39,840 nt of DNA from a virus. Below the pieces are notes generated by a model that worked only from the letters and a program-made list of their open reading frames with translations, searched no databases and was not told the DNA's origin. Where the stretch lies: IMG/VR virus record IMGVR_UViG_3300021364_000058, positions 1 to 39,840 of that record; one strand, written 5' to 3'. This document shows positions 3,603-35,549 of the stretch, in pieces; positions within the stretch are counted from its first letter, which is position 1, and every line of letters begins with the position of its first letter. The position numbers were made by a program, and so were the translations under genes.

Positions 3603-3616
3603 ATACTTTACCTTTA

Positions 3617-4010: not shown

Positions 4011-4625
4011 TTAGTCTCCTACTTCAGTAAGTACTTTCTTGCGAACTACTTTATGGAGACCTGGGTTGACCCGCAATGCGTGTGGCATAAGTTCATGCCG
4101 AATATAGTTACGCATGTATTTTGTATTTGTATTACTTGGGTCTTCTATAAAATCAACTGAATACTTTTCTGCCCACTTGTAAAACTGTTCTTTTGTGTTA
4201 AGTCTGAACGGGCGAATAATTTGCTTGCGCCGATATGGTACAATCTTACCAGTACCATGTAGCGAGCTCCAAATCCAAGTTTCAACACAATCGTCTAAGT
4301 GATGCCCAGTAACAACTTCAATATCTAACTGTTGAGCTTGTTCATCAAGCCACTTGTATCGTTCTTTACGCCAATGCTCTTCTGTACTTGTGCCGTTTGG
4401 TGCTCGAGGATCTGCAATTTCACCAATGCACAGTTTTAGATTATTGTCGTCGGCGTGTTGTTCTAAAAATGCTTGTGCTACGTCGCCTGTAGTAGTGCCG
4501 TGATTAAAGTACAGCAAGGTCACATCGTGATTGTTGCTAAGGAAGTCAGCAATTACCATAGAGTCTACGCCGCCACTGCAAGCAATAGCAATACGGCGAG
4601 AGATGTGACCTTGCAGTTTAAACAT
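4011..4625 (-). CDS. tilS: TilS-type tRNA(Ile)-lysidine synthase, catalytic domain only
   Basis: A 204-residue PP-loop ATPase. The P-loop SGGVDS is at residues 17-22. It is followed by EEHWRKERYKWL (the RxxRY segment), GHHLDDCVET (about 107-116) and FIEDPSNTNTKYMRNYIRH, the tRNA-lysidine synthase signature. TilS attaches lysine to C34 of tRNA-Ile(CAU) so that it reads AUA. It is much shorter than E. coli TilS (over 400 residues) and lacks the C-terminal tRNA-binding domains. No tRNA gene was seen in this window, so a host tRNA or a phage tRNA elsewhere would be the substrate. Its start overlaps the preceding stop (TGATG). Confidence 0.85.
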   Translation of the reverse strand: MFKLQGHISRRIAIACSGGVDSMVIADFLSNNHDVTLLYFNHGTTTGDVAQAFLEQHADDNNLKLCIGEIADPRAPNGTSTEEHWRKERYKWLDEQAQQLDIEVVTGHHLDDCVETWIWSSLHGTGKIVPYRRKQIIRPFRLNTKEQFYKWAEKYSVDFIEDPSNTNTKYMRNYIRHELMPHALRVNPGLHKVVRKKVLTEVGD

Positions 4626-7026: not shown

Positions 7027-7563
7027 TTATGTTCGTTTCAAGTATTCAATAATATTTTCAGGTGATGTTTCTCCGTAAGGATCAAAATCTTCACCTTTGT
7101 TGTTTATACCTGGTTCTACCCACATATATTCAATATTGCCATCGTCGATGATCATAGCATAACGCCAGGACCTTTGTCCAAAGCCTAAATGATGTTTGTC
7201 AACAAGCATTCCCATCATTCTTGTGAACTCGCCGTTTCCGTCTGCAATTACTTTTACGTTTTCAATTTCTTCACGTTTAGCCCACGCATTCATTACAAAG
7301 CTATCGTTGACGCTTATGCAAAATATCTCATCAATTCCTAAATTTCTTATTTGGTCATAGTTTTCCTCAAAGCCTGGTAATTGCTGTTCAGTGCAAGTAG
7401 GCGTAAAAGCGCCAGGTAATGAAAACAAGATAACACGCTTGCCGTTAAAATAATCGCTAGTTGAGATGTCTTTCCATTCCCAGCCTTTACGTTCGCTCCA
7501 TGGAGCGTCTGGATTGCTAGGTACTCTAGTTTTCCATACACAATTAGGTATTGTTTGACACAT
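7027..7563 (-). CDS. Peroxiredoxin (Prx5/glutaredoxin-dependent type)
   Basis: A 178-residue thioredoxin-fold peroxidase. PGAFTPTCTEQQLPGF places the peroxidatic Cys at residue 57 in the invariant P-x(3)-T-x(2)-C motif. Further family motifs are CISVNDSFVMNAW, ADGNGEFTRMMG and GFGQRSWRYAMIIDDG. It reduces hydrogen peroxide or organic peroxides in the cytoplasm. Prx5-type enzymes are often recycled by glutaredoxin, and this phage encodes one (15435-15665). A weak upstream promoter is possible (GTACAA / ATTATA on the plus strand, 15 bp spacer). Confidence 0.9.
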   Translation of the reverse strand: MCQTIPNCVWKTRVPSNPDAPWSERKGWEWKDISTSDYFNGKRVILFSLPGAFTPTCTEQQLPGFEENYDQIRNLGIDEIFCISVNDSFVMNAWAKREEIENVKVIADGNGEFTRMMGMLVDKHHLGFGQRSWRYAMIIDDGNIEYMWVEPGINNKGEDFDPYGETSPENIIEYLKRT

Positions 7564-7617: not shown

Positions 7618-9153
7618 CTATTTTGTGGTCCAATGGAAGGTCGCTGTCTGCGGATCAGTTGCTGTGATGCTTAACCCTTTTGCAGGTAGCACAGTACCAG
7701 AACTTATTTTATCAACAAAATCTTCGCCTGAACTTATAATGGTAAAAGTTCTAGTAGACTTGTTAATTAGCATTATGTGGTCAAAGCCATCTGTAGTTTT
7801 ATAGCTTTCGTGTTGGATAAATGTTATTGCTTTCATCAAGCCTTCGTAGCTCAAAGTAACGCCTTCTGGAGTTTGATTTACTGCTGCATCTATTAGGTTT
7901 TCATAATATTGATCTGTGCGTGAGCCTCTTACTTCTTTATAGTTACTTACTAGCTCTTGTATAAGATCATGCAAAAACTGCACTGAGTCATTCTTTGAAT
8001 AACCCGCAGCATTTAAACTTCTTTGATAATTGTCGGTACCACTTTTAGTAATACCACTTACAATACTTTTTCCTTTAAGGTCGCCTTTTCTGTGTAATTG
8101 ATTCATTACTTTCCAAAGCTTATTGTGTTCTTTTCTAAGCAGTCTTGTTACTCCAGCATGGGCAGCTTTTCCTGGCTGAATCTGTGTGCCGTTCAGTCTC
8201 CCGCCTGTTGGTGCTGTACCTTTTTTATAGTTGCCGCCTTTGATTTCATATCCTTGCCCGTCTATAATTAGGTCGCCTTTTTCTTGCGCTTTCTCTGTCG
8301 GATCACCTAGGGCAGCAAGTGCTAATTCACCTGGTCCAACATTACCCCCAGTTCCAGCAGGCATGCTGTTTAGAAGATCATTTATAATTATATTATATAC
8401 GCCTTTGTGTGTTGGATTTACATAGTCATCGATAGAGCCATGACCGCCTTCTGCTCTAACTAGATTAATCATGTTTATGACTTGACCGTCAGCGGCAGCC
8501 CTAGCAAATTCTAAAGCTTCTTCTTGTTTTAGTTCACCTGTTTTAATTTTTCGTCTAAACAAAGTATCAAAAAGATCCATAAGAGTATTTTGAGTCTTTT
8601 CTCTTGTTTTCATTTTCGATATTTCGTTTTTTGTAAATCCTGCATCTTTATAATTTGGAATTACAAAACCGTCTATTTTTTGTGCAAGTCTCGCTAGCTG
8701 TGCATCAATTGCATTCATAAATTTTACAGCGTCTGCTTCTGCTGCTGCTCTGCCTTCTGCTTTTGTTTTTTCAAATGCACCATCTACAGTAACTCTTAAT
8801 TTTGCAATAGTGTCTCTGAAAGCGCCGACAATAGGATCACAGTTAGGAACTTCGTCGCAAATCATTTGTATTTTATTATTTAATTCTTCAATAAGGGTAT
8901 ATGTTGCAACATCTTCAGTGATGGGGTCGCTAACTAAATTACCGCTTTCATGTTTGTCATGATGAACTTTATTTAATATACTGCTAGCTTTGTTAATCAT
9001 CGCCTGTATCAAACCCTTTGTTTTGATTACAAGGCTTGCATCTGTTTTAGCAGCAGTGTCTAGCTCTTTTTCGATAACTTTTAGATCAGTTTCAATTTGA
9101 TTTTCTGCTTGTTCTAGTAAAAATCTTGGTGTTGAAAAATCTGTGAATTTCAT
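7618..9153 (-). CDS. Large phage protein with a PD-(D/E)XK-like core and a capsid-targeting-like N terminus
   Basis: A 511-residue soluble protein. Residues 20-160 are largely coiled coil. The centre reads GPGELALAALG (about 273-283) then KGDLIIDGQGYEIKGG (292-307), with Asp294, Glu303 and Lys305 spaced like the D...E-x-K core of PD-(D/E)XK nucleases. A Gly-rich GRLNGTQIQPGKAA follows. The N terminus MKFTDFSTPRFLLE/Q fits a capsid-targeting peptide with an (L)-L-E cleavage site. A late-type motif lies 19 nt upstream. A packaged nuclease-fold virion protein is an inference; otherwise function is unknown. Confidence 0.6.
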   Translation of the reverse strand: MKFTDFSTPRFLLEQAENQIETDLKVIEKELDTAAKTDASLVIKTKGLIQAMINKASSILNKVHHDKHESGNLVSDPITEDVATYTLIEELNNKIQMICDEVPNCDPIVGAFRDTIAKLRVTVDGAFEKTKAEGRAAAEADAVKFMNAIDAQLARLAQKIDGFVIPNYKDAGFTKNEISKMKTREKTQNTLMDLFDTLFRRKIKTGELKQEEALEFARAAADGQVINMINLVRAEGGHGSIDDYVNPTHKGVYNIIINDLLNSMPAGTGGNVGPGELALAALGDPTEKAQEKGDLIIDGQGYEIKGGNYKKGTAPTGGRLNGTQIQPGKAAHAGVTRLLRKEHNKLWKVMNQLHRKGDLKGKSIVSGITKSGTDNYQRSLNAAGYSKNDSVQFLHDLIQELVSNYKEVRGSRTDQYYENLIDAAVNQTPEGVTLSYEGLMKAITFIQHESYKTTDGFDHIMLINKSTRTFTIISSGEDFVDKISSGTVLPAKGLSITATDPQTATFHWTTK

Positions 9154-9547: not shown

Positions 9548-9994
9548 TTACCCATCAATCAGATTGGGTTCGGTGATTGCAATCTTTTTAGGTTGCAGTT
9601 CTTCTGGTACATAACGCTTCAAATGAACGTTAAGCATACCCAGTTCAAGTGATGCACTTTCTACTTCAATATGGTCAGCAAGAGTAAATTCTCTAGTGAA
9701 ATTGCGTGAACCAATACCTTTGTGCAAATAGTCTACTTCGCCGTTAGTTTCTGGTGAAGCACCTTGTACTGTAAGTACATTTTTTTCCAAAGTAATATCT
9801 AGATCAGCCATACTGAAACCTGCAACAGCAACAGAGATAACAAATTCATCGTCTGTCACTTTGACAATATTATATGGCGGATATGAAGTAGTTTTTGAGT
9901 TCTCGAACACTCTGTCCATTTCACGGAACATTCTATCAAAACCAATAGTTGCACGGTGGAGTTGTGGTAAGTCGAGAGTAGTGTATCTTGTCAT
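9548..9994 (-). CDS. Hsp20-family small heat-shock protein
   Basis: A 148-residue alpha-crystallin-domain chaperone. NIVKVTDDEFVISVAVAGF, LDITLEKNVLTVQG and FTREFTLADHIEVESASLE then GMLNVHLKRYVPEE match the crystallin strands, including the G-x-L (GML) motif. A short IxI-like tail (KIAI) follows. It binds unfolded proteins to prevent aggregation and is very common in T4-like marine phages, where a role in virion assembly is suspected. The start MTRYTT is chosen for AAAGGAG 8 nt upstream. Its promoter carries both early and late elements (10050-10080). Confidence 0.93.
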   Translation of the reverse strand: MTRYTTLDLPQLHRATIGFDRMFREMDRVFENSKTTSYPPYNIVKVTDDEFVISVAVAGFSMADLDITLEKNVLTVQGASPETNGEVDYLHKGIGSRNFTREFTLADHIEVESASLELGMLNVHLKRYVPEELQPKKIAITEPNLIDG

Positions 9995-10020
9995 TTTTAT
10001 CTCCTTTATAAGCAAGATAT

Positions 10021-10050: not shown

Positions 10051-10080
10051 ATTTATACATGGAATCACAGCGTTTGTCAA
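10050..10080 (-). promoter_or_regulatory. Superimposed early and late promoters for hsp20
   Basis: Minus strand: TTGACA (10075-10080), 17 bp, TATAAATA (10050-10057). TATAAA serves as a sigma70 -10 at ideal spacing, while the whole octamer is the exact T4 late promoter. The -35 overlaps the guaC stop codon. Confidence 0.72.
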
Positions 10081-11201
10081 TTCCCGATAGTATTTTTTTC
10101 GTATACTGCATTGTGTGTTTGTGTGCAACGCACAAAGGTTGTACACTTACTAAGTTGCTTGAGGGTTTCTGCTCCTACATACGTGCAAGTGCTTCGAATA
10201 CCGCCGAGAATATCTTGTACGGTATTTTCTACTGGGCCACGGTAGGGCACAAGAATAGTACGACCTTCTGACGAACGGTAATCTTTGAGCCCGCCAAAGT
10301 GCTTTTTGTTTGCAGTTTGACTACTCATTCCGTAGAACTTACGAAACTCTTTACGTTCGATAACCGGCTTATAAACTTCGTCTTCTTTCATATAGTAATA
10401 TTCGTTATTATGCACGTACTTAAAGATTTCTTCGCCGCCGCCTTCGTCGTGGCCAGCTAGCATCCCGCCGAGCATTACAAAGTCTGCACCCGCAGCAAAT
10501 GCTTTGGCTACATCGCCTGGAGTCGTACAACCACCATCAGCAATAATATGTCCACCAAGACCATGAGCAGCATCGGCACATTCCATGACTGCAGAAAGCT
10601 GCGGATATCCCACCCCAGTCTGAATCCTAGTAGTGCAGACGCTACCAGGACCAATACCGACTTTGATAATATCAGCTCCATTTAGAATTAACTCCTGTGT
10701 TTGATCTGCTGTAACTACGTTACCAGCAATAATAGTTTTAAAAGGATAAGTTTCACGTAGGTGTCTAATAAATTCTACAAAACGTTCTGTATAACCGTTT
10801 GCTACATCTACACAAACGAATTGCAATTTGTCTAAAACTTTTTGATGTACTTGCTCAAGTTTATCCAAATCAGCATCACCGATACCAATACTCATTGCCA
10901 CGTAAGGCTGCGGTTCTGAAAAGAAATCGGCCAGTTCTTCTGCTGAGTAAGTCTTTACCAAACAAGTAAACATTTTATGGTTGCTCAAAGTACGAGCCAT
11001 TTCAAATGTTCCCACACCGTCCATGTTAGCAGCCATGATAGGAACGCCGTTGTAATCATAGTCGTTAATACGAGCGCCTTTTGCACCTACAAAATTGTAG
11101 CTACGCTCCATAGTAACATTTTTACGAGAAGTAAGACGGCTACGCTTAGGACGAATCAGCACGTCTTTATAATCTAGTTTTACATCATTTTCTAAGTGCA
11201 T
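10077..11201 (-). CDS. guaC: GMP reductase
   Basis: A 374-residue (beta/alpha)8 enzyme of the IMPDH/GMPR family without CBS domains. [20 protein letters not shown] contains the catalytic Cys189. Also present are [45 protein letters not shown] and [10 protein letters not shown], and a C-terminal flap FYGMSS with [10 protein letters not shown]. The CTTR-IQTG and GCTTPGD reading fits GMPR rather than IMPDH. It deaminates GMP to IMP with NADPH, letting guanine from degraded host nucleic acid re-enter IMP and adenine pools. It is translationally coupled to rpsU (1-nt overlap) and lies at the end of an early operon starting near 14343. Confidence 0.92.
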
Positions 11202-15677: not shown

Positions 15678-15968
15678 CTACGGCAAGGCAATGCCAGTTG
15701 TAGAGCTTACATACTGTTTTGCTAAATCTTTCTCAGTTTTTACAATACAGGTAATGGCACTGCTTTTCAAAGTAAATTTACTATCATGACTAGCGCTAAA
15801 CATAAACGGACCTAGACCTAAGCCTTGTCCTTGCATGATTAGCATCATTGGCTTTGATAGTGTCACACCATCTGCATTTTCACTATCGAATCTGCCAACT
15901 ACTTCTTCACCACCGGTGAGCTTTAATGATACAGTGTCACCAGTTTTGTATGGTGTTTCGATTAACAT
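15678..15968 (-). CDS. Sm/LSm-like small barrel protein, unknown
   Basis: A 96-residue protein. The opening KTGDTVSLKLTGGEEVVGRF followed by VTLSKPMMLIM has the strand pattern of an Sm-like barrel (a G..V...L..G....G.... start). No second Sm motif is clear, so this is a fold guess. It sits between nrdB and grx, with its ATG overlapping the nrdB stop. Confidence 0.6.
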   Translation of the reverse strand: MLIETPYKTGDTVSLKLTGGEEVVGRFDSENADGVTLSKPMMLIMQGQGLGLGPFMFSASHDSKFTLKSSAITCIVKTEKDLAKQYVSSTTGIALP

Positions 15969-17071
15969 TATAATTTAAATCCTTTTAACATGTCATTATT
16001 TACGTCTTGTTTAATACCGCCTACAATATATGATTCTACTTCTGTCTCCTGCGGCGCTACTTGTAGTGTGTTTGAGCTTAACCAATGCTGTGTCCACGGT
16101 AGCGGATTTGTGTTAACTGGTGCATCGAAAATTGCATTGTATCCAAGTGCCTTGAGTCTGCGATTAGCAATGTATTCTACATACTGATGTAACAGCGTTT
16201 GATTAAGACCGATCATTGAGCCGTCCTTAAACAAATAGGTTGCCCATGCTTTTTCCTCGTCTACACATTCTCGCCACATATCATAAACTTCTTCTTCGCA
16301 CTCTTTCGCGATGTCTACCATTTCTGGATCATCTTTGCCTTGAGCCCAAAGTTTTAAAATATGCGTAGTTAATGCAAGGTGCTGGGCCTCATCCCGTGCA
16401 ATAAGACTAATAATCTTAGCACTTCCTTCCATGAGCTTTAATTCACCAAAACCAAAAGTACATGCGAAAGACACATAGAAACGCAAACCTTCTAAGATGT
16501 TTACATTCATCATTGCCAAGTAAAGTTTTTTCTTAACTTCATGCATAGACCCTTTCTTGTGATGGAACCAATTATCACTTGCTTCATTAAATGCATCGTA
16601 GTTTTTGGTAACTGATACTGCACGTTCAATAATTTTATCATCTTCGAGGATTGTGTCTAGCACTTCACTTGGATCGCTGTAGATATTTTTCATAATGTGC
16701 GTGTACGAGCGACTGTGAATAGTTTCAAAAAAGTCCCAAGTCACAATACAGCCTTCTAGCTCAGGAATACTAACATGAGGCAAGAAGCTAAGACATGGTC
16801 CGCGACCTTGTACACTATCTAGCAGAGTTTGATACTTTAGGTTAGCTGTAAAAATATGTTTTTGCTCTGGCCTAAAGTTTGCATAGTCTGCTCGATCTTT
16901 TTGCAAACTGACTTCTTCAGGTCTCCAAAAATAACCAAGCATAGTTTGGTTAAGTTTATCAAACACAGGAAACTTAAATACATCATAGCGCTGGGTATTT
17001 TGTTCAGCTCCAAAAAACATATTTTGTTTTGTGAAATCAACTTTCTCTTGATTAAAAACGGTTTTACTCAT
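15968..17071 (-). CDS. nrdB: Ribonucleotide reductase class Ia, beta subunit
   Basis: A 367-residue protein carrying the diiron-tyrosyl radical cofactor. WDFFETIHSRSYTHI holds the first Glu-x-x-His and the radical Tyr. FGFGELKLMEG and ISLIARDEAQHLALT give the second set of Glu and His ligands. Together with NrdA it makes dNDPs for phage DNA synthesis. The start MSKTVF overlaps the nrdA stop by 4 nt (ATGA) with GAGG 10 nt upstream; an ATG three codons earlier is possible but too close to the SD. No intein or split was seen. Confidence 0.96.
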   Translation of the reverse strand: MSKTVFNQEKVDFTKQNMFFGAEQNTQRYDVFKFPVFDKLNQTMLGYFWRPEEVSLQKDRADYANFRPEQKHIFTANLKYQTLLDSVQGRGPCLSFLPHVSIPELEGCIVTWDFFETIHSRSYTHIMKNIYSDPSEVLDTILEDDKIIERAVSVTKNYDAFNEASDNWFHHKKGSMHEVKKKLYLAMMNVNILEGLRFYVSFACTFGFGELKLMEGSAKIISLIARDEAQHLALTTHILKLWAQGKDDPEMVDIAKECEEEVYDMWRECVDEEKAWATYLFKDGSMIGLNQTLLHQYVEYIANRRLKALGYNAIFDAPVNTNPLPWTQHWLSSNTLQVAPQETEVESYIVGGIKQDVNNDMLKGFKL

Positions 17072-19380
17072 ATTGCGCATGCCTCACACATTTCGTCTTC
17101 CTCTGGAAGATCTTCTAAAATTATATTTTCTTCGACTTTCGATTCTTCATCTGTAATCTCAGACGGATCAACTTTGTAATCATAAGTGTTTTGATAGTAG
17201 CTTGTCTTCCAACCTAGCTTGTAGGTAGTTAACAAGTCTTGCATCATTACACTCATTGGTACTTCATTGTCCTGATACTGTATTGGATTATAACTCCAAT
17301 TTGCAGAAATTGCTTGATCAAAAAACTTCTGCATAGCAGCAACAATCTTTATGTAACCCTCGTTGCCTTTCATATCCCAAAGCAAAGTATAGTGTTGCTT
17401 TAGTGATTGATACTGTGGCACAATTTGCTTTAATGGCCCTTTTTTACTTTTCTTAACGCTTAAATATCCACGTGGCGGTTCGATGCCATTTGTTGCATTA
17501 CACACTACACTTGAACTTTCACTTGGCATTTGAGCACTCAGTGTAGAATGCCGCAATCCCCATGTTGCAATATCTTCACGTAGTGCATCCCAATCGTGTC
17601 GTAGATCTACGCCGCCGATTGCTTCGTCGACGTCTTGTTTGTAAGTATCAATCGGAAGCACGTTATCTGCATATTTTGTGCGTTCGAAATATTCACACTG
17701 GCCACGTTCTTGTGCAAGTTTGTTTGATGCCTTAAGCAGATAGTACTGGAAACTTTCGGTAAGTTTGTCTACAAGCACTGCTGCTTCATTATCTTCATAA
17801 CTAACTTTATTTTTTGCAAGGAAGTGGGCAAGCCCTACATAACCAATACCTAGTGAGCGACGTGCTTTAGTGGAAATTTCTGCTGCTTGTACTGGGTACT
17901 TTTGGTAATCAATAATCTGCTCCAAAGCTCTTACTGCAAGATCGCAAAGATCTTCAAGATCGTCTAGTTCTTTGATAAGCCCAACGTTTATAGCGCTTAA
18001 AATACAAAGTGCAATTTCGCCATCTTTATCATCGATATGATCTAAAGGTGTCGTAGGCAATGTAATCTCTTGACATAAGTTACTCATATAAACTTTGTCT
18101 TTAAAAGAACTATGTGTGTTTGCGTGATCTACATTCATAATGTAGATACGTCCGGTCTCAGCTCGTTCCTTAATTAACTCACTAAACAGTTCCATTGCAG
18201 GAACACGCTTTTTCGGAATAGAACGACTGTTCTCGTATTGCTGATAAAGTTCTTCAAACTCGTCAGGATCGCCAAAGTAAGCTTCGTAGAGCCCTGGAAC
18301 ATCATGTGGTGAAAATAATGTAATATCTTCTCCGTTCAGCAGCCTAGTGTACATTGTCCTGTTGAGTTGTATACTATAGTCCAATTTTCTTACACGACTG
18401 TCTTCTGTGCCTTTGTTGTTTTTCAACACAAGTATATCTTCAATCTCTTGATGCCACAACGGGAAATGAACAGTAGCACTACCTCCTCGTACTCCGTTCT
18501 GTGTACAACATCGTACAGTAGATTCAAACTTTTTTAAGAACGGAACCACCCCAGTGTGCGCAACTTCGCCGCCGCGGATTTTACTGTTGACTCCACGAAT
18601 TCTACCAGCATTAATCCCGATACCAGCACGTTGAGCGGTATAGCGGCCAATAGCCATATCACTAGAGAAAATGCTGTTGAGAGTGTCATCACTATCCACA
18701 AGCACACAGCTAGCAAATTGACGTATTGGCGTTCTAACCCCTGCCATAACGGGTGTAGGAATGTTAACTTTGAATAGAGAAATTGCATCATAGTACTTCT
18801 TTACATATTGTAAGCGCTCTGCTTTAGGATAATCAGCAAATAGTGTTGCTGCAATCATCATGTACATAAACTGTGGCGTTTCAAAAATTTCCCCAGAGGA
18901 TCGATCCTGTACTAGGTACTTATCAACTACTTGTCTTAGTCCTGCATATGTAAAGTTTTCATCACGTTTGTGATGGATATAAGAATCTAATTTATCAATC
19001 TCTTCTTGACTGTACATTGACAAAATTTCGCGATCGTATACACCACGGAAAATATTTTTCTCAATGATTTGACTTAGTGTAATAGTTTGGTATCCGCCAA
19101 ACACTTGCTTGTACAAGCCGTAAGATAGTAGTCGTGCTGCTGCATATTGATAGTTTGGAGTTTCAAGATTTATAAGATCGCTAGCGCTTCGTACAAGTAC
19201 TTCTTGTATCTCTCCAGTCGACATACCGTTATAGAATTGTATGTTTGCATTCATTTCAATTTGACTACTACTGACACCAGCTAGTCCATTACATGCTTCT
19301 TCTACAACGAAGTGAATTTTGTCGATGTCGAGTGGTTCTCGAGAACCATCACGCTTGACAATCATTATATCTCGATTCAT
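17068..19380 (-). CDS. nrdA: Ribonucleotide reductase class Ia, alpha subunit
   Basis: A 770-residue catalytic subunit. Residues about 5-95 form the ATP-cone (VKRDGSREPLDIDKIHFVVE). Active-site elements are ASCVLVD, GGSATVHFPLWH, SNLCQEITLPTT (thiyl-radical Cys), LCILSAINVG and SESSSVVCNATNGIEPPRG. The C terminus ends CEACAI, the redox Cys pair served by glutaredoxin. It reduces ribonucleotides in the cytoplasm. It is the first gene of an nrdA-nrdB-Sm-like-grx-H1-like operon behind a consensus early promoter, with TTGGAG as the ribosome site. Confidence 0.97.
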   Translation of the reverse strand: MNRDIMIVKRDGSREPLDIDKIHFVVEEACNGLAGVSSSQIEMNANIQFYNGMSTGEIQEVLVRSASDLINLETPNYQYAAARLLSYGLYKQVFGGYQTITLSQIIEKNIFRGVYDREILSMYSQEEIDKLDSYIHHKRDENFTYAGLRQVVDKYLVQDRSSGEIFETPQFMYMMIAATLFADYPKAERLQYVKKYYDAISLFKVNIPTPVMAGVRTPIRQFASCVLVDSDDTLNSIFSSDMAIGRYTAQRAGIGINAGRIRGVNSKIRGGEVAHTGVVPFLKKFESTVRCCTQNGVRGGSATVHFPLWHQEIEDILVLKNNKGTEDSRVRKLDYSIQLNRTMYTRLLNGEDITLFSPHDVPGLYEAYFGDPDEFEELYQQYENSRSIPKKRVPAMELFSELIKERAETGRIYIMNVDHANTHSSFKDKVYMSNLCQEITLPTTPLDHIDDKDGEIALCILSAINVGLIKELDDLEDLCDLAVRALEQIIDYQKYPVQAAEISTKARRSLGIGYVGLAHFLAKNKVSYEDNEAAVLVDKLTESFQYYLLKASNKLAQERGQCEYFERTKYADNVLPIDTYKQDVDEAIGGVDLRHDWDALREDIATWGLRHSTLSAQMPSESSSVVCNATNGIEPPRGYLSVKKSKKGPLKQIVPQYQSLKQHYTLLWDMKGNEGYIKIVAAMQKFFDQAISANWSYNPIQYQDNEVPMSVMMQDLLTTYKLGWKTSYYQNTYDYKVDPSEITDEESKVEENIILEDLPEEDEMCEACAI

Positions 19381-23984: not shown

Positions 23985-24668
23985 TTATGCAGTGTTTAGC
24001 TCATAGAATCGGTATACTCTGTCCCACCAAGCATTTTTCCATTCTTCAAACTCATCTGGCCAAATATCAAACTGTTGGTATTCTCCTGCTCGCGAGCACA
24101 TAAAAATATGTCCTTCTTTTATATCAGTGCCATAAATTTCATTGTGTGCAATTGCATAAGCAGTTAATTGTAAAAAGTAGTCTTCAACCCATTCTACTTT
24201 CTTAGGCTTGTTTGTCTGTTTAAAGTCCATAATCGAGGGCTGGCCTTTGTAAGTACCTACAAGGTCAGTTGTGCCAGCATACAGATTAGGAACATACAGT
24301 GCTACTTCTGAGCCCCATATTTCATCTACATCAGTCAAAGCATTCATTTTAATTTCTGTTGCCATTGAGAATGCTTGCTGCGCATAAGGATTGCTGCCAG
24401 GGCTAGGCCATTCGCCATGCTCCACATAGTCCTCTAAATACTTGTGCATTCGAGTACCTACGCCTGCTGCTTCAGTAGTAATTTCTCTAGCTTTTGCTTC
24501 ACCGACTCTTTTACGCCAAGCGATTAAATGAGTTTTGTCTTTTGTAGCATCTAAAATTGTTGTTACACTTGCTACTGCATTACCATCTGGTGTTAAGTAT
24601 TTTCTTTGCCCGTTTACACTGGTTCTATCTATTGCTTTATAATCAAACTTGTTCTTTATTAGTGTCAT
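23985..24668 (-). CDS. PD-(D/E)XK exonuclease of the RecB/Cas4-like group
   Basis: A 227-residue nuclease. GTRMHKYLEDYVEHG, then YAGTTDLVGTYKGQPSIMDF with KQTNKPK give the core (Asp, Asp-x-K). YFLQLTAYAIAH is the QxxxY motif that positions the DNA end. This is the single-domain exonuclease common in T4-like marine phages; it probably trims DNA ends in recombination or repair. It overlaps the NfuA gene by 26 nt, so the two share the early promoter at 24991-25018. Exonucleases with this core sometimes carry an Fe-S cluster; no four-Cys set is visible here. Confidence 0.87.
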   Translation of the reverse strand: MTLIKNKFDYKAIDRTSVNGQRKYLTPDGNAVASVTTILDATKDKTHLIAWRKRVGEAKAREITTEAAGVGTRMHKYLEDYVEHGEWPSPGSNPYAQQAFSMATEIKMNALTDVDEIWGSEVALYVPNLYAGTTDLVGTYKGQPSIMDFKQTNKPKKVEWVEDYFLQLTAYAIAHNEIYGTDIKEGHIFMCSRAGEYQQFDIWPDEFEEWKNAWWDRVYRFYELNTA

Positions 24669-24984
24669 CTATTTCGTCTTCGTCCCAATTATAAAAATCC
24701 ATACTAGAATAAAATGGATCAACATTACTATTAGGATCGTCTTGTGCATCTACTTCTTTAATTTCTGGGATATAATGCATTAACATATTTTCAATGCCCA
24801 TTTTAAGAGTCATAGTGCTGCCAGCACATCCGCTACATGCACCGCCTAGCTCTAGCAAAAGTCTACCATCATTGAATTCTAAAAATTCAATATTGCCTCC
24901 GTGGCCAGCAACTGCCGGCTTGACTTTTTCTTCAATAAGAAGTTTAATCTCTGCTACAATATCGTCGTGGTTACGTTCAGTCAT
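24643..24984 (-). CDS. NfuA/NifU C-terminal-type Fe-S cluster carrier
   Basis: A 113-residue protein. VKPAVAGHGGNIEFLEF and LGGACSGCAGSTMTLKMGIE are the NifU C-terminal domain, with the CxxC that holds a bridging [4Fe-4S] cluster between two subunits. NMLMHYIPEIKEV completes the domain; an acidic tail follows. It delivers Fe-S clusters to apoproteins. The -10 TATAAT is 6 nt from the ATG and there is no SD, so the mRNA is predicted to be leaderless. It is co-transcribed with the exonuclease. Confidence 0.9.
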   Translation of the reverse strand: MTERNHDDIVAEIKLLIEEKVKPAVAGHGGNIEFLEFNDGRLLLELGGACSGCAGSTMTLKMGIENMLMHYIPEIKEVDAQDDPNSNVDPFYSSMDFYNWDEDEIDDTNKEQV

Positions 24985-25024: not shown

Positions 25025-25414
25025 TTAGTCTTCTAGTTGTTTAGCTGCTGCTTGTGCTGCTGCTGGATCATCTTTTGCATCATAATCCTGCATGCGCTTT
25101 TCTTGATCAGCAGGCAAAGTCATTTGCTGATCTGTTTTCAATTCTATTCCGTCCTTATCAAATTGTTTAACAATTTTTTGAATTCGGTTGTCTTGATCGT
25201 ATGCGTTGTTAAATGTATCAAAAGTAAACTGTTGCGCTCCTGCATTCGTCATTAAACGATTTAAATCTAAATTTATCACATTAGGCTTAGGATTTTTAAT
25301 TCCATCAAAGTGAAGATACACAGGTTTTTCATCAGCATCGGCGTTGCCTTGCACAGTCACAAGAATTTGATAGAGTAGATCTGTATTTTCTCGCAGGATT
25401 TCTGCAAAGCGCAT
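25025..25414 (-). CDS. Phage protein with capsid-targeting-like N terminus (129 aa)
   Basis: It begins MRFAEILRE/N, fitting an M-[KR]-x-x-[DE] targeting peptide with an L-R-E cleavage site at residue 9. The rest is acidic with a Gln/Ala-rich helical tail. No family was recognised. It overlaps the next upstream gene by 1 nt and so belongs with the probable virion genes. Confidence 0.65.
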   Translation of the reverse strand: MRFAEILRENTDLLYQILVTVQGNADADEKPVYLHFDGIKNPKPNVINLDLNRLMTNAGAQQFTFDTFNNAYDQDNRIQKIVKQFDKDGIELKTDQQMTLPADQEKRMQDYDAKDDPAAAQAAAKQLED

Positions 25415-26790: not shown

Positions 26791-26983
26791 TTCGCTTTAC
26801 CAGTATATGTCCGTCTTCTTTTATTTTATTTACTAGATTTTTACGTTCTAGAGTGTTAAATATGACTTCTTCACGTTCTGTCAAACTGTCGATAGGAACT
26901 GGCAATCCAAGTTTATTCAATAGATCTTGTTCTTCGTTTGATCGTTGAATCTCGTAACTAAGGATTAGTTCGTTGATCTTCAT
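26750..26983 (-). CDS. Small phage protein (77 aa)
   Basis: It begins MKINELILSYEIQRSNEEQD, which shares the M-K-x-x-E start of the putative packaged proteins but lacks a clear (L/I)-x-E cleavage site. The rest resembles a short winged-helix or helical region (PIDSLTEREEVIFNTLERKN). It overlaps the upstream stop by 4 nt. Confidence 0.62.
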   Translation of the reverse strand: MKINELILSYEIQRSNEEQDLLNKLGLPVPIDSLTEREEVIFNTLERKNLVNKIKEDGHILVKRNEYCHTPFKRAPE

Positions 26984-27282
26984 GTGGCTACGCCTGTGGT
27001 TGGTGTAGTAGCAGTAGGCATAGTTTGTGCTGTCGGCGCAGTGGTAGGTGTTGTTTGTGCCGGCTGAACAGCTTTTGAATTTTGTGCTGCTATCACTGCC
27101 TGTGCAGCCTTTCTTTCTTGGCGTTGCAGTTCTGGCAATTCTTCTGTTTGTGCTTTACGTATTTCATCACGCTTGACTCGCACTGCCTCCCTCGCCTGCT
27201 GCAAAGCTGTGTTTGCTGCTAGTACAGGGTCTTGCTCTTGTAGCACATCTTCTTGCTCTTTTAATAGATCTATAACTTTCAT
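26980..27282 (-). CDS. Phage protein with capsid-targeting-like start and Thr/Pro/Ala-rich tail (100 aa)
   Basis: It begins MKVIDLLKE/Q (cleavage-like L-K-E at residue 9). A charged helix (residues 20-65) and a PTT/PTA-repeat tail follow (TTPTTAPTAQTMPTATTPTT). No family was recognised. It overlaps both neighbours by 4 nt. Confidence 0.65.
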   Translation of the reverse strand: MKVIDLLKEQEDVLQEQDPVLAANTALQQAREAVRVKRDEIRKAQTEELPELQRQERKAAQAVIAAQNSKAVQPAQTTPTTAPTAQTMPTATTPTTGVAT

Positions 27283-28715: not shown

Positions 28716-29597
28716 TTATTTGTTAGATTTTTTAATTCTACTGTGTAGAACTTTAAGCTGCTGTATAGCTGTTGGTCCCGCTTGAATAAAGTCATGAATC
28801 ATCTTAATAATAGGCAAATAACTTTGTATATAATTCAGTGGAGAATTAGTGTTTTTGAACGAACGTTCAACAAATTTGTGAGCTAATACCATGTTGTCGC
28901 TGCCTACAAGCATTCTGTAGTATGCCATATCTTTAGTAGATCCTGCATCAAAGTCAGCTTGGCTTATTTCAATTTCTGTATCCCTTACAGAACTTACTTC
29001 TAAACGATTTTTGCCTACCCATCGAGAAAAGTCATCTATAATATCACTAGAGCGTAGTTTTGCTCGAGCAGCAAATAAAAGTTTGGTTACTACTTCTTTG
29101 CGCTGTTGCACAGAAATTTTTGTATAGTTTGCTAGTAATCTACGTATAAAACTATAATCTGATATCTGTGCCGCAAGACTTTTTTGTAGTTCATAAAATA
29201 AACTGTATGAATTTATTTTAGGATCTCTTGGATTATTTTTAATTTGTGTTAGATGTCCAGCAAGTGTTGCGATAGGTAAATGTGTATTACGTCTAACTTT
29301 TTTAGCTGCACCTGGATCTTTCAACTTATCCATTGCTGCGTTATCGCCAGTTACAAAATATATGAAATTGTAAAGGTCAGTATTTGCAATTTTAAACATT
29401 TTATAACCGTTGTAGTCTAAAGTTTTATCTAAATACCTATTAAGAAAATTATCATTTTCATTATCGTATCGCATTACTTCAATAATACATACAGTCAAAA
29501 ACAATTTTTCACAGCAGTCGGAATATGTAAGTGATTTTTGATCACTTTCATTTCGCACCATTCGTGCTTCGTGTATTTCTTTAATGAACTCCATCAT
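28716..29597 (-). CDS. Phage protein of unknown function, last gene of the nucleotidyltransferase operon (293 aa)
   Basis: A helical, basic 293-residue protein. It begins MMEFIKEIHE/A, a possible targeting peptide with an I-H-E site. The middle (KVRRNTHLPIATLAGHLTQI, FIRRLLANYTKISVQQRKEV) and the end (SPLNYIQSYLPIIKMIHDFI) are helical. No domain was recognised. It overlaps the ligase-like gene by 4 nt and is probably made with it. Confidence 0.62.
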   Translation of the reverse strand: MMEFIKEIHEARMVRNESDQKSLTYSDCCEKLFLTVCIIEVMRYDNENDNFLNRYLDKTLDYNGYKMFKIANTDLYNFIYFVTGDNAAMDKLKDPGAAKKVRRNTHLPIATLAGHLTQIKNNPRDPKINSYSLFYELQKSLAAQISDYSFIRRLLANYTKISVQQRKEVVTKLLFAARAKLRSSDIIDDFSRWVGKNRLEVSSVRDTEIEISQADFDAGSTKDMAYYRMLVGSDNMVLAHKFVERSFKNTNSPLNYIQSYLPIIKMIHDFIQAGPTAIQQLKVLHSRIKKSNK

Positions 29598-30787
29598 TTT
29601 ATGCCGCTCAGCTTTTGGATTTGATTTAGCTCAATGCTCTTTGCTTCTCTTTGCACTTGCCTATTAGCAGCAGTGAAACCCGATCTATCAACTAATTTTA
29701 TAGCACCTTGACTATGATCTAACACATATCCTTCGCCGCCCGAAGCATCACCAATTGTCGCTTTAATAGCTGTATTATGTGAGTCAAACTGCTTGATTAT
29801 ATCATTTTTAATTTGCATAATTTGATCTACAATTTTCCACATACCACTAAACGCACTTTGATGCTCAGTAATATACTGTTGAATACGCTGCTGTTTAGCA
29901 GGTGACACTTTGCTAGTGCCTAGCCAATTTACAAAATCAGATCCTAGATTTGTAAGACCGCTGTCTACTTTTCTATTAAGATAGGTATAGAAAATCATAG
30001 GCAGGTCTTTCATCTTTAATCTTGTTAATCGTTCGGTATTCAACATATCGTCGATTTGTGCACCATATTGTGTAATACCACTATTTGCATCATTTACATG
30101 ACTGTCGTTGACATTAGGTGCACGTTCAACAGTTACAGGAGGAAAATACAGTACTTCACCTGTATTCATTTGATTGAGTATACTTTGAGGCACCGTAGAA
30201 TCTTTACCGTCGGGTGTCATAAACCTGTGCACCACTACTCCACTTTTACTAGCTGCTATGTTTTTTCCTATTTCACTCGATGCATCAATAGAGTAGGTAA
30301 CAATATTAGGCGTGAATACAAAGTTACCATTTTGTTGAGGTGGAGTATCAAAATACAGTAGGTCACCTTTTAAATATCCTATTACATGCTGAGGAAAACT
30401 TTTTTCATAAAGGTTATAAAGAGCAGACATCTTACTTGCAAATATTTTTTGTGCTTCTGCGTTATTTGGGTTACGTCTACTAAACATTGCATTTACTGCG
30501 GCAGCGCTTGTGGGCTTACCGTCGTAACCTTTAGCTGCAAAGCCACTTTTATCTGTTAAAACAAAATCACCGTTTTCATTGCGTCCAAAAATTATAGCCG
30601 GCGATCCGTCCCACTTGATAGTAACATCTTTGTGCCTGCCTTGTTCTAAACCTTTTAGCGCATCAACTGCACGAAGTGCACCTTTAGACCCTTCCCAAAA
30701 AATTAAATCTTCTGCGTGTTGTATACGTGCTTCTGCACCTTCATTCAAGGTAAACTTAACATCTTCAAATAGTTCTATAACTTTCAT
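29594..30787 (-). CDS. Ligase-like nucleotidyltransferase (DUF6267-like) with capsid-targeting-like N terminus
   Basis: A 397-residue protein. DVTIKWDGSPAIIFGRNENG (Lys58-x-Asp60-Gly61) resembles motif I (KxDG) of ATP-dependent DNA/RNA ligases. LTDKSGFAAKGYDGKP follows, and near the end GGEGYVLDHSQGAIKLVDR (about 350-368) resembles motifs IV and V. The N terminus MKVIELFE/D fits a targeting peptide. It could seal or adenylylate nucleic-acid ends. It directly follows a Pol-beta-type nucleotidyltransferase gene (TAATG overlap). The ligase link is by motifs only, and activity is unproved. Confidence 0.65.
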   Translation of the reverse strand: MKVIELFEDVKFTLNEGAEARIQHAEDLIFWEGSKGALRAVDALKGLEQGRHKDVTIKWDGSPAIIFGRNENGDFVLTDKSGFAAKGYDGKPTSAAAVNAMFSRRNPNNAEAQKIFASKMSALYNLYEKSFPQHVIGYLKGDLLYFDTPPQQNGNFVFTPNIVTYSIDASSEIGKNIAASKSGVVVHRFMTPDGKDSTVPQSILNQMNTGEVLYFPPVTVERAPNVNDSHVNDANSGITQYGAQIDDMLNTERLTRLKMKDLPMIFYTYLNRKVDSGLTNLGSDFVNWLGTSKVSPAKQQRIQQYITEHQSAFSGMWKIVDQIMQIKNDIIKQFDSHNTAIKATIGDASGGEGYVLDHSQGAIKLVDRSGFTAANRQVQREAKSIELNQIQKLSGIK

Positions 30788-31527
30788 TAGATAGCTCCGG
30801 CTAGTTCACGCAAACGAGTTATATCTTTGCTTTCAGGTAATTGGATACCTTTTTTTGCAAAAGTTGCTTCTGCATCGGCTACTAATTCTCTGTAATCTAT
30901 ACGGTTACGTAGTTTTGTAAGAATTGTTTCTACACTTTCTAAGTCATCTGCTTGTGCATTTGGACCAATTAGGTGTTGCGCAATTTCTTGCGGATTTTTA
31001 GATATCACTTGATTAGACTCTCTATCAATCAAGCCGTTTTGAGAACTCCATTTCATTCCTTGCGCAGTAGCAATACTGCTCATCAGTATTTGCCTGTCGG
31101 CTCCAGAATAAGCTGTACCTTCGTTAGAACCTGCCATACTCCATTTCATCCATTCTGGATCGCCAAACATCAAATCAGTTTGTACATAGCCATTTGACTC
31201 ATCACCAAGAATAGGTGTAAGAAAATGCACACTGATACCTGTCTTACGAATCCATGTTTTTGGATCTTTACCATTCTTTTTACACCAAGCTGCTAATTTA
31301 TTCACAAGTTCATCTTTTGAAACATCTTGCTGATTTACAGCCACATCTAAGTCTCCACTGGTTTCTTTACGTCCAGTAGATCCTAACATAAAATCTTCAT
31401 GTGGTAAACCTGTAATTTGCTCTAGCCATTGTAAAGTAGGTAATACATCTGCTTTATTGATTCTCTGTGTTAATATTCTACCTTCAGGATCTTTGAATAT
31501 GTTTCCGCCTTCATTAAGGATTTTCAT
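30787..31527 (-). CDS. Pol-beta-superfamily nucleotidyltransferase
   Basis: A 246-residue protein. GSTGRKETSGDLDVAVN (residues 49-65) is the GS...R...GD-D motif, with the metal-binding Asp59 and Asp61. The third Asp is probably in YVQTDLMFG (Asp118). Family members add nucleotides to RNA, proteins or small molecules (tRNA CCA addition, antitoxins such as MntA, and others); the substrate here is unknown. The N terminus MKILNE/GG fits a short targeting peptide with an L-N-E site. It overlaps the ligase-like gene by 1 nt and the upstream gene by 14 nt. Confidence 0.78.
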   Translation of the reverse strand: MKILNEGGNIFKDPEGRILTQRINKADVLPTLQWLEQITGLPHEDFMLGSTGRKETSGDLDVAVNQQDVSKDELVNKLAAWCKKNGKDPKTWIRKTGISVHFLTPILGDESNGYVQTDLMFGDPEWMKWSMAGSNEGTAYSGADRQILMSSIATAQGMKWSSQNGLIDRESNQVISKNPQEIAQHLIGPNAQADDLESVETILTKLRNRIDYRELVADAEATFAKKGIQLPESKDITRLRELAGAI

Positions 31528-31774
31528 TTTTGCTTTCCCTTATTGTGCGTTTTAGACTGCGATTAAATTTTTCAATGTCACCTGTTTTCAAAGCATTGAT
31601 AAACTTTTTTTCTAGTTTTACGCCTACTTCGGTGCCATACTGATTGTCTATACGAGACATAAGATTTATAACACTTTCTAAAATGTTTGCAGCTGATGCT
31701 TCTATCATAGAGTCAGGATCTTGACTTCTATAACTTTGTAATTCTTCTAAGATGGATCTTGTCTTTTTACGCAT
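31514..31774 (-). CDS. Small basic helical protein, first gene of the nucleotidyltransferase operon (86 aa)
   Basis: It begins MRKKTRSILE/E and is helical throughout (ANILESVINLMSRIDNQYGT). No family was recognised. Its ATG lies 5 nt after a TAAATA motif, with no SD, so the transcript is predicted to be leaderless. Confidence 0.65.
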   Translation of the reverse strand: MRKKTRSILEELQSYRSQDPDSMIEASAANILESVINLMSRIDNQYGTEVGVKLEKKFINALKTGDIEKFNRSLKRTIRESKNENP

Positions 31775-31779
31775 GCATT

Positions 31780-31785
31780 TATTTA
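31780..31785 (-). promoter_or_regulatory. Late-type TAAATA motif abutting a start codon
   Basis: Minus-strand context GCTAAATAAATGC then ATG; 5 nt separate the hexamer from the start codon. The divergent lipase motif is 12 bp away. Confidence 0.5.
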
Positions 31786-31797
31786 GCTGCTGTTACA

Positions 31798-31806: not shown

Positions 31807-31828
31807 TTGGGAATGGAGGGCAACCCAA
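31807..31828 (+). promoter_or_regulatory. Leader hairpin of the lipase gene: SD in loop
   Basis: TTGGG (31807-31811) pairs with CCCAA (31824-31828). The 12-nt loop carries GGAGGG and the A of the ATG closes the stem. It starts 3 nt after the late motif. Confidence 0.5.
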
Positions 31829-32574
31829 TGCACATGAAATCACTACGGGTCTCGGGAAGAGGCCACGTTCTTGCGAAACTATCTGAGTTTGTTTATCAAG
31901 AACCGGAAGAAGCAGAAAAATTAGTTAAAGAATTTGGTTTTCATACTTTTGAATATTATAACAGAGACGGGGCACAAGCATATAGATTTGAAAGTGATTC
32001 AGATGTAGTGTTTGCATGCCGTGGTACTGAACCAGGTAATTTTAATGATATGCTTGCAGATTTAGATGCAAGAAAAGAAGACAGCGAAACAGTAGGTAAA
32101 GTACATAAAGGCTTCAAACGTGAAGCTGACGACATTTGGGAGATGATTTACGAAGATTTAATTGCTCTCAATGAGGATAAAAGAAACTTATGGTTTACTG
32201 GACACAGCTTAGGTGCTGCAATGATTACTATTATGGCAAGTAGAGCGTGGGATGATGACGCATTGCCAGATCCGCTTGAACTACATACTTTTGGATCTCC
32301 AAGAGCAGGCGACGCAGTATTTGCAGACAGCATGAAAGACAAAACGCATTATCGTTGGGTAAACAATAATGATATTGTTACGATGGTTCCGCCAGCGTTT
32401 ATGGGCTTCAAACATGCAGGTACTGAAAAATATATAAATTCCGATGGTCTTGTAGTAAAAGTAGACTTTGTAAAAAAACTCATAGATCGTTGGAATGGCT
32501 TAATGGGCAACAAAATGGATATGATAAACGACCACACTTGTAGCCTATACGCAAAGCACTGCAAAGCAAATTAG
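31828..32574 (+). CDS. Class 3 (Lipase_3) alpha/beta hydrolase
   Basis: A 248-residue cytoplasmic lipase. VVFACRGTEPGNFNDMLADL (oxyanion region), WFTGHSLGAAMITIMAS (nucleophile Ser in GHSLG), HTFGSPRAGDAVFADS, then WVNNNDIVTMVPP (Asp) and NDHTCSLYAKHC (His) give the full triad. It would hydrolyse acyl esters such as glycerolipids. There is no signal peptide, so a role in lysis would need another export route; lipid recycling or membrane change is also possible. The start at MHMKSL is set by GGAGGG 7 nt upstream. It is the first plus-strand gene. Confidence 0.9.
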   Translation: MHMKSLRVSGRGHVLAKLSEFVYQEPEEAEKLVKEFGFHTFEYYNRDGAQAYRFESDSDVVFACRGTEPGNFNDMLADLDARKEDSETVGKVHKGFKREADDIWEMIYEDLIALNEDKRNLWFTGHSLGAAMITIMASRAWDDDALPDPLELHTFGSPRAGDAVFADSMKDKTHYRWVNNNDIVTMVPPAFMGFKHAGTEKYINSDGLVVKVDFVKKLIDRWNGLMGNKMDMINDHTCSLYAKHCKAN

Positions 32575-33889: not shown

Positions 33890-34558
33890 CTACAACCCCA
33901 ATCCTACAAAATAAGTGTACATATCACGTATACTAGTTGTGCCTAGCTTACCTGCTTGCTGACTCTTTGTAACAGGCACGTCATAGTTTTGATTGTGAAA
34001 TGCTTTCTGCCATTTAGAACCGTTTGGAGAAAACTGAAATGCCTGCATTATAGCTGCTTGTACTGCCGGCTGATATGTTCCTATGTTAGGAAACTTCTCT
34101 AGCATACGATAGCTTTTTGCCCACTGAGGATATACTGCTATTTGCTCATCTAGTGGTGCTGCTCTAAATTCATCAGCAGTCATACCTCCCATTGGAAAGT
34201 GATTCTTGTGTATTTGTGTAGCGCCGTAGTGATTCCCGCTTGGCGACACTGCGGTTGAATCAAAGTTAGACTCCGTTTTTACAATAGCACGCAGAGCGCT
34301 AGGTGCTATACCTAACTCTTTAGCAGCTCTAGCAATAGCTGCTGTTACAACGTCTGGTCGTTGCTTGGGCATTGGAGGTGCGTTACGCCTTGCTACTTCG
34401 GCATCGCCGTCGCCACGTCCGGAACTTTGCGCTGCTCTTGCTGTAGAAGATGCTACTGCTGCATCCATTTCGTCTCTTGCGTCTTGCGGATAAGTATCTT
34501 TTTTACCCCAGGTAAAAGGATTCCACCAGTCCTCGGTTATAATTTCACTGAATCTCAT
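33890..34558 (-). CDS. Lytic transglycosylase (SLT domain) with capsid-targeting-like N terminus
   Basis: A 222-residue protein. It begins MRFSEIITE/D (cleavage-like I-T-E at residue 9). A disordered linker (25-70) is followed by the SLT domain: SALRAIVKTESNFDSTAVSP with catalytic Glu96, GNHYGATQIHKNHF and the PAVQAAIMQAFQF end. It cleaves peptidoglycan glycan strands. With a packaging-type N terminus in a late operon, it is probably carried in the virion to open the wall during entry, or acts in lysis. It overlaps the upstream gene by 4 nt. Confidence 0.85.
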   Translation of the reverse strand: MRFSEIITEDWWNPFTWGKKDTYPQDARDEMDAAVASSTARAAQSSGRGDGDAEVARRNAPPMPKQRPDVVTAAIARAAKELGIAPSALRAIVKTESNFDSTAVSPSGNHYGATQIHKNHFPMGGMTADEFRAAPLDEQIAVYPQWAKSYRMLEKFPNIGTYQPAVQAAIMQAFQFSPNGSKWQKAFHNQNYDVPVTKSQQAGKLGTTSIRDMYTYFVGLGL

Positions 34559-35274
34559 CTTATTCTACCTCTTGTTACAATTGCTAATGCTGCTTTAAAA
34601 ATTTGCCTTAGAGTTCTACCGTTTGGTCTTAGACTTTTATGAATACGTTTTCCTAAGAAGTCTTTTCTATTCAAGTACACATGAGTTCTTATGCCTCTTT
34701 TCTCTGCCATTTCTAACACTTGATCTAATAATTCTAAATCAGGCTGTGAATGTTTCCTTACAACATCTATGTATTTTACATAATTCTGTTTTGTAAGTTC
34801 AGTGCCGTCTTTGTACCTGTCAGGTATATATCCTGTTTCGTCGTATTTTGCAACAGTTTGTATTGCTTCTGTTGGCCATACATGAACTGCTCTAACAAAT
34901 TTTTTAAGACCAATAACAGGTTGTTTGCCTTCTAGGTCTAACCTAGTTTCTAATTCATCGTCGAAAACTTGTCCTAGTGTAAATGGCCCTAATTTATAGG
35001 ACCTACCTGGTGACTTACCTTGTCTAGTTTGCAGTGCTTGTTCTAATTTTTCTTGATTAATTTCAAAAGTAACTGCTCTGTCTAAGAATTCAGTAACATA
35101 TTGATTGCTAGGTGATCTACTAAAACTTATAAAACTATCTTTTGCAACAGGAATTGCATCTTCTACATTTACTTCAAGACCGTTATTGATCAGTATTCTT
35201 ACAGCCTTTTCATAAGTCATAGAGTGATAAAGCAGTTTAAGATCAGACTCGAATACAAATTCTTTACTTCTCAT
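34555..35274 (-). CDS. Phage protein with a possible ADP-ribosyltransferase-like fold
   Basis: A 239-residue protein. It begins MRSKEFVFE/S (V-F-E at residue 9). The core reads LKLLYHSMTYEKAVRILINN, ISFSRSP and AVTFEINQEKL, the 'YH.t....A..Il..G....S.s....Y' layout seen in ART and RNA 2'-phosphotransferase folds. No R-S-E triad is certain. T4 packages the ADP-ribosyltransferase Alt through a similar targeting peptide, which makes the idea attractive, but it is an inference. The C terminus is basic. Confidence 0.5.
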   Translation of the reverse strand: MRSKEFVFESDLKLLYHSMTYEKAVRILINNGLEVNVEDAIPVAKDSFISFSRSPSNQYVTEFLDRAVTFEINQEKLEQALQTRQGKSPGRSYKLGPFTLGQVFDDELETRLDLEGKQPVIGLKKFVRAVHVWPTEAIQTVAKYDETGYIPDRYKDGTELTKQNYVKYIDVVRKHSQPDLELLDQVLEMAEKRGIRTHVYLNRKDFLGKRIHKSLRPNGRTLRQIFKAALAIVTRGRIR

Positions 35275-35549
35275 TATCTGAGTCTTCCGCGACCACCTGG
35301 TAATCTATCTCTTGAACCGTAATCTTTTACAGGTCCGCCATATGTAGTGCTTTTCCTTCTAGTGCCACCTAGCTTAACCCTGCGCCTGCCTATTTTCTGT
35401 GTTTTTTTAGTATCTCTAGCACGAAGACCCTGTGCTTTACAACTTGCTTCAGCACTAGCACCTATAGGAGTGGTTTTCTTGCAAGTATCTTTACTTGCTT
35501 TCCATTCTTCAATATCGTCTTCGTGAATTGTAATATCGACAATTTTCAT
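35274..35549 (-). CDS. Small basic phage protein with capsid-targeting-like N terminus (91 aa)
   Basis: It begins MKIVDITIHE/D (I-H-E at residue 10). The remainder is Arg/Lys/Gly-rich (GLRARDTKKTQKIGRRRVKL, GSRDRLPGGRGRLR), with two Cys at about 23 and 37. It may bind DNA inside the head. The ATG lies 5 nt after a TAAATA motif and lacks an SD. It is first in the transglycosylase operon. Confidence 0.65.
   Translation of the reverse strand: MKIVDITIHEDDIEEWKASKDTCKKTTPIGASAEASCKAQGLRARDTKKTQKIGRRRVKLGGTRRKSTTYGGPVKDYGSRDRLPGGRGRLR

Follow-up and report, generated by a model that had tools for sequence, protein, structure and literature searches.

A late-type phage operon pairing a family X DNA polymerase core with a DUF6267 ligase-like protein: a candidate virion-packaged repair system

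We describe a four-gene operon in the virus record IMGVR_UViG_3300021364_000058 (positions 1 to 39,840; the whole 39.8-kb stretch of 39,840 nucleotides (nt) is hereafter referred to as the window). Four overlapping open reading frames (ORFs), in the order S, N, L and C, occupy positions 31774-28716 on the minus strand (Table 1). N resembles the core of a family X DNA polymerase (Pol X), and L is a protein of family DUF6267 with the motifs of a nucleic acid ligase. We consider the chances to be evenly balanced that this operon encodes a fill-and-seal repair pair packaged in the virion, with DNA a more likely substrate than RNA. A more specific proposal, to be taken as tentative, is that the virion carries the Pol X and the DUF6267 ligase, that both are processed by the prohead protease (which would also cut fused forms apart), and that after injection they fill and seal damage in the incoming genome before phage gene expression. 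A previous reading of the DNA, made from the sequence alone, had listed here a small basic protein, a nucleotidyltransferase, a ligase-like protein and a 293-residue protein without recognisable function, and every one of these ORFs was recovered on the minus strand, with the small basic protein, S, preceding N. The translational coupling of N and L that it had read from TAATG was also found, since the junction is CTAATG and the stop codon of N has one base in common with the start codon of L. The L/C overlap is four bases (ATGA) and the S/N overlap is 14 bases.

The window N gave no match of note in Pfam, PHROG, PDB sequences, NCBIfam or PADLOC, and a PDB sequence search with single sequences and profiles yielded no credible match for either N or L. 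N carries GSTGRKETSGDLDV, and across 45 diverse representatives the invariant residues are a G, GD-x-D and Q-x-D, with D59, D61 and D118 all invariant. The fold was modelled, with a 55-row alignment, on a natural N-L fusion from a related locus (L119), that is, on a homologue and not on the window protein; both domains mostly exceeded a predicted local distance difference test (pLDDT) score of 90. The N domain of this model matched DNA polymerases lambda, beta and mu (Foldseek probability 1.00, E 3.8e-3). Its superposition on Pol lambda gave a VIA Z of 10.1 and a root-mean-square deviation of 3.2 over 171 residues, with similar values for Pol beta and mu, and it aligned to Pol beta residues ~139-335, corresponding to the palm and C-terminal thumb. 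Comparison of the N profile with that of 15 bacterial PolX proteins (hhalign) scored 77% (E 2e-5), with GS..GDxDV, the third aspartate and the thumb motif G.K....GL...EI..L in register. Three other assignments were tried and rejected on their profile scores: RlaP (0.2% against 18 RlaP sequences, PF10127), CCA-adding enzyme (0.6%) and MntA/MNT type (1.1% against an MNT-like profile). The ligase sets scored ~1% or less against N. On both the fold and the profile comparison, N is best read as the core of a family X DNA polymerase, consisting of palm and thumb, with a putative template-directed activity. The sequence-only reading had classed N as a Pol-beta-type nucleotidyltransferase, naming CCA/MntA enzymes for comparison; the nucleotidyltransferase type was upheld, with three of three catalytic carboxylates present, and the comparison favoured Pol X over the CCA/MntA type. 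As N appears to be a Pol X core, like neither RlaP nor the CCA/MntA type, the likely substrate shifts from RNA toward gapped DNA. DNA is also favoured because no RNA-specific feature was found in N, and because the analogous PgVPolX of Phaeocystis globosa virus, a Pol X core fused to an NAD+-dependent DNA ligase, fills and seals DNA gaps (PMC5537341).

L is a clear member of DUF6267 (PF19782; E=1.3e-37, 130.5 bits against a curated cut-off of 27), a family on which our literature search found no publication. The motifs KWDG, GEGYVL and IKLVDR, on which the earlier ligase-like assignment was based, are all present, the lysine of KWDG being K58, and they belong to a complete set that runs in ligase order: K58 (I), K80 (Ia), D142 (III), E352 (IV) and K364 (V). 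Among 74 diverse representatives there is little or no variation at the key residues of K-x-D-G, TDKSG, GDLLY, EGYV and K-L-V-x-R; motif III has D for E (GDLLY) and motif V has V for the second K (KLV). In the model, the motifs sit on strands and loops as expected for ligases. These features suggest that L is a ligase-like covalent nucleotidyltransferase, with putative adenylylation at K58 and a putative sealing activity. The PDB match lists for the L119 fusion model were filled by Pol X structures, through the N domain, with no ligase among the matches listed, and the BFVD matches were mostly unnamed phage proteins, together with the L protein of S-PM2, annotated as a cytidyltransferase, and one protein of Atu_ph07. 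A standard ATP-dependent DNA ligase is also encoded by several marine contigs of the group and by PA5oct, and L would therefore be an extra, specialised enzyme. Three isolated jumbo phages also have a ligase-like gene near N: in Phosso and Atu_ph07 it is the next gene upstream, and in PA5oct it lies three genes upstream; the Phosso protein was linked to those of Atu_ph07 and PA5oct by tblastn. Among 11,376 other ORFs, the unusual IV-V pattern of L was found only in the ligase-like proteins of Phosso and PA5oct.

The motifs of L are most like those of T4 RNA ligase 1 (KEDG..KSKG, EGYV..KIK, similar spacing), and RNA_lig_T4_1 was the sole Pfam ligase family touched by L, below the cut-off (E=0.018). 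The ligase-like protein of Atu_ph07 touches RNA_ligase (E=0.002), and pairs of RlaP and RNA ligase, thought to restore bases and then to seal, are common in jumbo phages (PMC7824862). The operon could accordingly be read as a packaged RNA repair system, in which N restores nucleotides to defence-cut RNA (e.g. tRNA) and an Rnl1-like L reseals it. We consider this unlikely, as the N profile is Pol X-like and neither RlaP- nor CCA-like, a distinct and clear RNA ligase is encoded elsewhere in the genomes of Atu_ph07 and Phosso, and the window contains no tRNA genes.

Relatives were identified by two viral-contig scans, with N and L as queries, which gave 159 loci, mostly from marine viruses of bacteria, and gene order was read with iterated hidden Markov models of S, N, L and C. 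The genes stay together: 109 viral loci show S-N-L-C, all four on the same strand, and 35 further loci have S-N-L only. S precedes N in ~150 loci; the gene before C is L in most loci, but N in Phosso and Atu_ph07. N and L are often fused (17 natural fusions in all, of 615-1094 amino acids (aa), in 8 groups at 60% identity). In a scan with the L alignment only, used to avoid the bias of anchoring on N, 74 loci were informative; N was directly beside L in 38/74, fused to it in 12/74, elsewhere in 3/74 and absent from 21/74, so that it was adjacent or fused to L in 50/74. Given this recurrence and the (near) invariance of the motif residues among the representatives of N and L, the operon is far from a chance arrangement.

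The sequence-only reading had also called the operon late, and this is supported by the sequence before S. TAAATA was found upstream of S in 120/131 relatives, against a background of 13.6%. The consensus is [C/A]TAAATAC, and its usual position is -22 to -28 from the S start, although in the window it lies at only -11. CTAAATA is the reported late-promoter form of the T4-like phage Aeh1 (PMC1524935). The T4 promoter TATAAATA was rejected, having been found before S in 1/131 relatives, and was replaced with [C/A]TAAATA.

Ahead of the conserved domain, 91-95% of the L, N and C sequences have a T4-type protease site; these counts come from related sequences and hence from non-independent events. 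In 131/138 anchored L sequences, [LIV]xE falls within the 8 residues ahead of this domain (5.5% expected by composition); in N, [LIVF]xE precedes GGNxF in 93/98, and in C there is an [LI]xE site in 82/90. The N proteins of PA5oct, Phosso and Atu_ph07 lack the prepeptide and start with M-GG/SG at the predicted cut, and the L of S-WAM1, also without a prepeptide, likewise starts at the predicted cut. Several N-L fusions still have the site in their linker, ahead of L, and cleavage there would release L in the prohead. A gp21-family prohead protease is present in 7/7 reference phages searched. PA5oct N is annotated as a structural protein from electrospray ionization tandem mass spectrometry (ESI-MS/MS), and the Atu_ph07 homologues lie within a virion-protein cluster (coding sequences 31-76), 29 proteins of which were found in virions. 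From the protease sites, the homologues starting at the cut, the late box and the PA5oct annotation, we infer that N, L and C are packaged in the phage head. The targeting-like N termini ascribed earlier to all four proteins are thus retained for N, L and C, with conserved [LIV]xE sites at the start of the domain.

S matches a PHROG family of virion structural proteins (phrog_11854, 'virion structural protein', E=2e-11), and its PA5oct homologue is also annotated as a virion structural protein. Together with the late-type box and the processing sites of prohead type, this would suit a role in assembly, in which the pair is not injected but mends or seals DNA inside the prohead or while it is being packaged. 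This is improbable, since T4 Alt and internal proteins bearing such signals are injected (PMC3012670, PMC5694885; T4 Alt annotation) and Pol X has no known need in packaging.

In the packaged-and-injected repair scheme that we prefer, S, N, L and C would be made together late in infection, and the short N-terminal prepeptides of N, L and C would direct these proteins into the prohead, where a T4 gp21-type protease would remove the prepeptides at the conserved sites. Mature N and L would then accompany the genome, first inside the head and then into the cell. From their families and motifs, N may be expected to fill short gaps or extend 3' ends; L would carry AMP on Lys58 and seal the nick after N. 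The substrate would more likely be gapped or nicked phage DNA, RNA being a possible but less likely one. The end-repair pair envisaged in the sequence-only reading is in part supported, by gene linkage, by frequent fusion, by the motifs of both proteins and, as regards capsid targeting, by the protease-type sites; the nucleotidyltransferase is now read as a Pol X core.

Several observations weigh against this scheme, in addition to the likeness of L to T4 RNA ligase 1 and the L loci from which N is absent. N lacks the 8-kDa lyase/helix-hairpin-helix (HhH) domain, as it starts ~40 residues before GS, and the Pol X motif YFTGS was not found in the N alignment. The 8-kDa lyase/HhH domain and YFTGS are typical of family X, but not universal in it. 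The Pol X of African swine fever virus (ASFV), for one, has no 8-kDa domain either (PMC5330486). With the 8-kDa domain and YFTGS both missing from N, its choice of sugar is not predictable. A gp21 homologue (PF03420) was not found in the window or in 13 marine contigs, all of which are partial. The sole N with a mass-spectrometric annotation, that of PA5oct, is prepeptide-less, and the ligase-like gp256 of PA5oct bears no annotation of detection in virions. Finally, L scored below 8% against the Rnl1, Rnl2, PF09414 and DNA ligase profiles, with nothing convincing past motif I, in a test that is itself weak, as the controls scored 1.9% (Rnl1 against Rnl2) and 0.2% (Rnl1 against DNA ligase).

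These negative profile tests, although known ligase families miss each other too, would also be expected if L were another covalent adenylyltransferase, acting in NAD+ or nucleotide metabolism and not in sealing. Such a role might explain why, in S-PM2, S-WAM1, HTVC008M and DLP_6, L has a cytidylyltransferase-like domain close by or joined to it, and why this domain is combined with N and L in two three-domain fusions. We nevertheless regard it as very improbable: the motif order I-Ia-III-IV-V is complete, the jumbo-phage ligase-like proteins near N show the same IV-V pattern, and a nicotinamide mononucleotide (NMN) adenylyltransferase could simply recharge an NAD+-using ligase. The domain in question is an HxGH nucleotidyltransferase domain, the recurrence of which was recorded at six loci (L320, L331, L005, L006, L007 and L008). 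In the two N-L fusions its order differs, as it follows N-L in one (L320:2078-5362) and precedes it in the other (L331:4645-7125); in S-PM2 it is fused to the C-terminal part of L, and in S-WAM1, HTVC008M and DLP_6 it is nearby. It may be a source of NAD+ for L or a sign of a different chemistry.

C, the protein after L, was modelled as all-helical (pLDDT 85.5), and no match was found for it in fold comparisons (Foldseek and VIA, nothing above noise) or in the sequence libraries, including the PDB profile search. The role of S and C is probably that of helpers, either structural or binding nucleic acid. A fifth small protein (~135 aa, without a Pfam match) is encoded between L and C in ~60 loci (e.g. 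L037:9828-10235) and forms a C-terminal extension of L in four others (L134, L138, L143 and L040); it is absent from the window. A class 3 lipase gene (window 31807-32574, plus strand) is divergent from the operon, and a related divergent gene lies upstream of S in ~70 related loci. In the genome collection, one 5.6-kb contig (locus L169), binned as a Planctomycetota metagenome-assembled genome (MAG), encodes an N homologue; as this homologue bears a prepeptide, the contig is probably phage sequence.

Table 1. Positions of the operon genes, predicted prepeptides and promoter-like box in the window (aa, amino acids; pI, isoelectric point)
Feature	Positions	Strand	Description
S	31514..31774	-	First operon gene; encodes a small basic protein of 86 aa (pI 9.3)
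N	30787..31527	-	Family X DNA polymerase core (putative), 246 aa; catalytic D59, D61, D118
L	29594..30787	-	DUF6267 ligase-like protein, 397 aa
C	28716..29597	-	All-helical basic protein, 293 aa, pI 9.3
Predicted prepeptide of N	31510..31527	-	MKILNE, cut before GGNIF; site in 93/98 anchored N sequences
Predicted prepeptide of L	30740..30787	-	MKVIELFEDVKFTLNE; site in 131/138 anchored L sequences
Predicted prepeptide of C	29568..29597	-	MMEFIKEIHE, cut before ARM; E10 invariant
Late-promoter-like box before S	31780..31786	-	CTAAATA, 11 bases before S start

Further minus-strand genes of the window begin with M[KR] and have an early [LIV]xE (33890-34558, 34555-35274, 35274-35549, 25025-25414, 26980-27282 and 7618-9153), and by this N-terminal pattern they may encode additional capsid cargo; the gene at 33890-34558 specifies an SLT transglycosylase with an N terminus like those of the operon. 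Genes resembling host-type metabolic functions were noted by sequence reading at 295-1239, 2799-3629, 4011-4625, 7027-7563, 9548-10015, 10077-11201, 15968-19380 and 24643-24984, the look-alikes being a phosphate permease, an aldolase, a TilS-like protein, a peroxiredoxin, Hsp20, an IMPDH-like protein, a ribonucleotide reductase and a NifU-like protein.

Parts of this system are already known, namely the viral combination of Pol X with a ligase and the capsid cargo of phages. PgVPolX is the closest in plan, as a viral Pol X with a ligase that is also a natural fusion in the order polymerase-ligase. However, the operon consists of phage genes that mostly encode two polypeptides, L belongs to DUF6267 and is ligase-like by its motifs, N lacks the 8-kDa lyase domain, and there are prohead-protease prepeptides, a late box and the additional S and C. 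The RlaP-RNA ligase pairs of jumbo phages (PMC7824862) similarly couple a Pol-beta-superfamily enzyme to a ligase in large phages, whereas N is not RlaP, L is neither Rnl1 nor Rnl2 by the (weak) profile test, and the operon bears capsid-targeting signals and a late promoter box. ASFV uses a gap-filling Pol X with a DNA ligase and an AP endonuclease for genome repair (PMC5330486, PMC6344480), but it is an unrelated virus, its Pol X lacks the thumb present in N, and its ligase is of another family. T4 Alt and the internal proteins (PMC3012670, PMC5694885) share the short N-terminal prepeptide, the cleavage motif ending in E and late expression, but the T4 cargo is an ADP-ribosyltransferase or a nuclease inhibitor and not a polymerase-ligase pair. 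The cyanophage DUF6267 proteins, such as S-WAM1 gp79, belong to the same family as L; the sampled members lie beside replication genes and a cytidylyltransferase, without N, and that of S-WAM1 has no prepeptide. Within the literature and databases searched, there appears to be no earlier description of the Pol X-ligase combination as found here, of DUF6267 as ligase-like or of the capsid targeting.

DUF6267, a Pfam family of many cyanophages without an assigned function, thereby gains a testable role and is tied to a phage Pol X-like lineage that was previously unassigned. Tailed phages may deliver repair enzymes along with their genome. If this is true, it would have a bearing on the survival of phages damaged by UV or nucleases when they enter the cell, and the natural fusion of polymerase and ligase would provide a compact enzyme for study.

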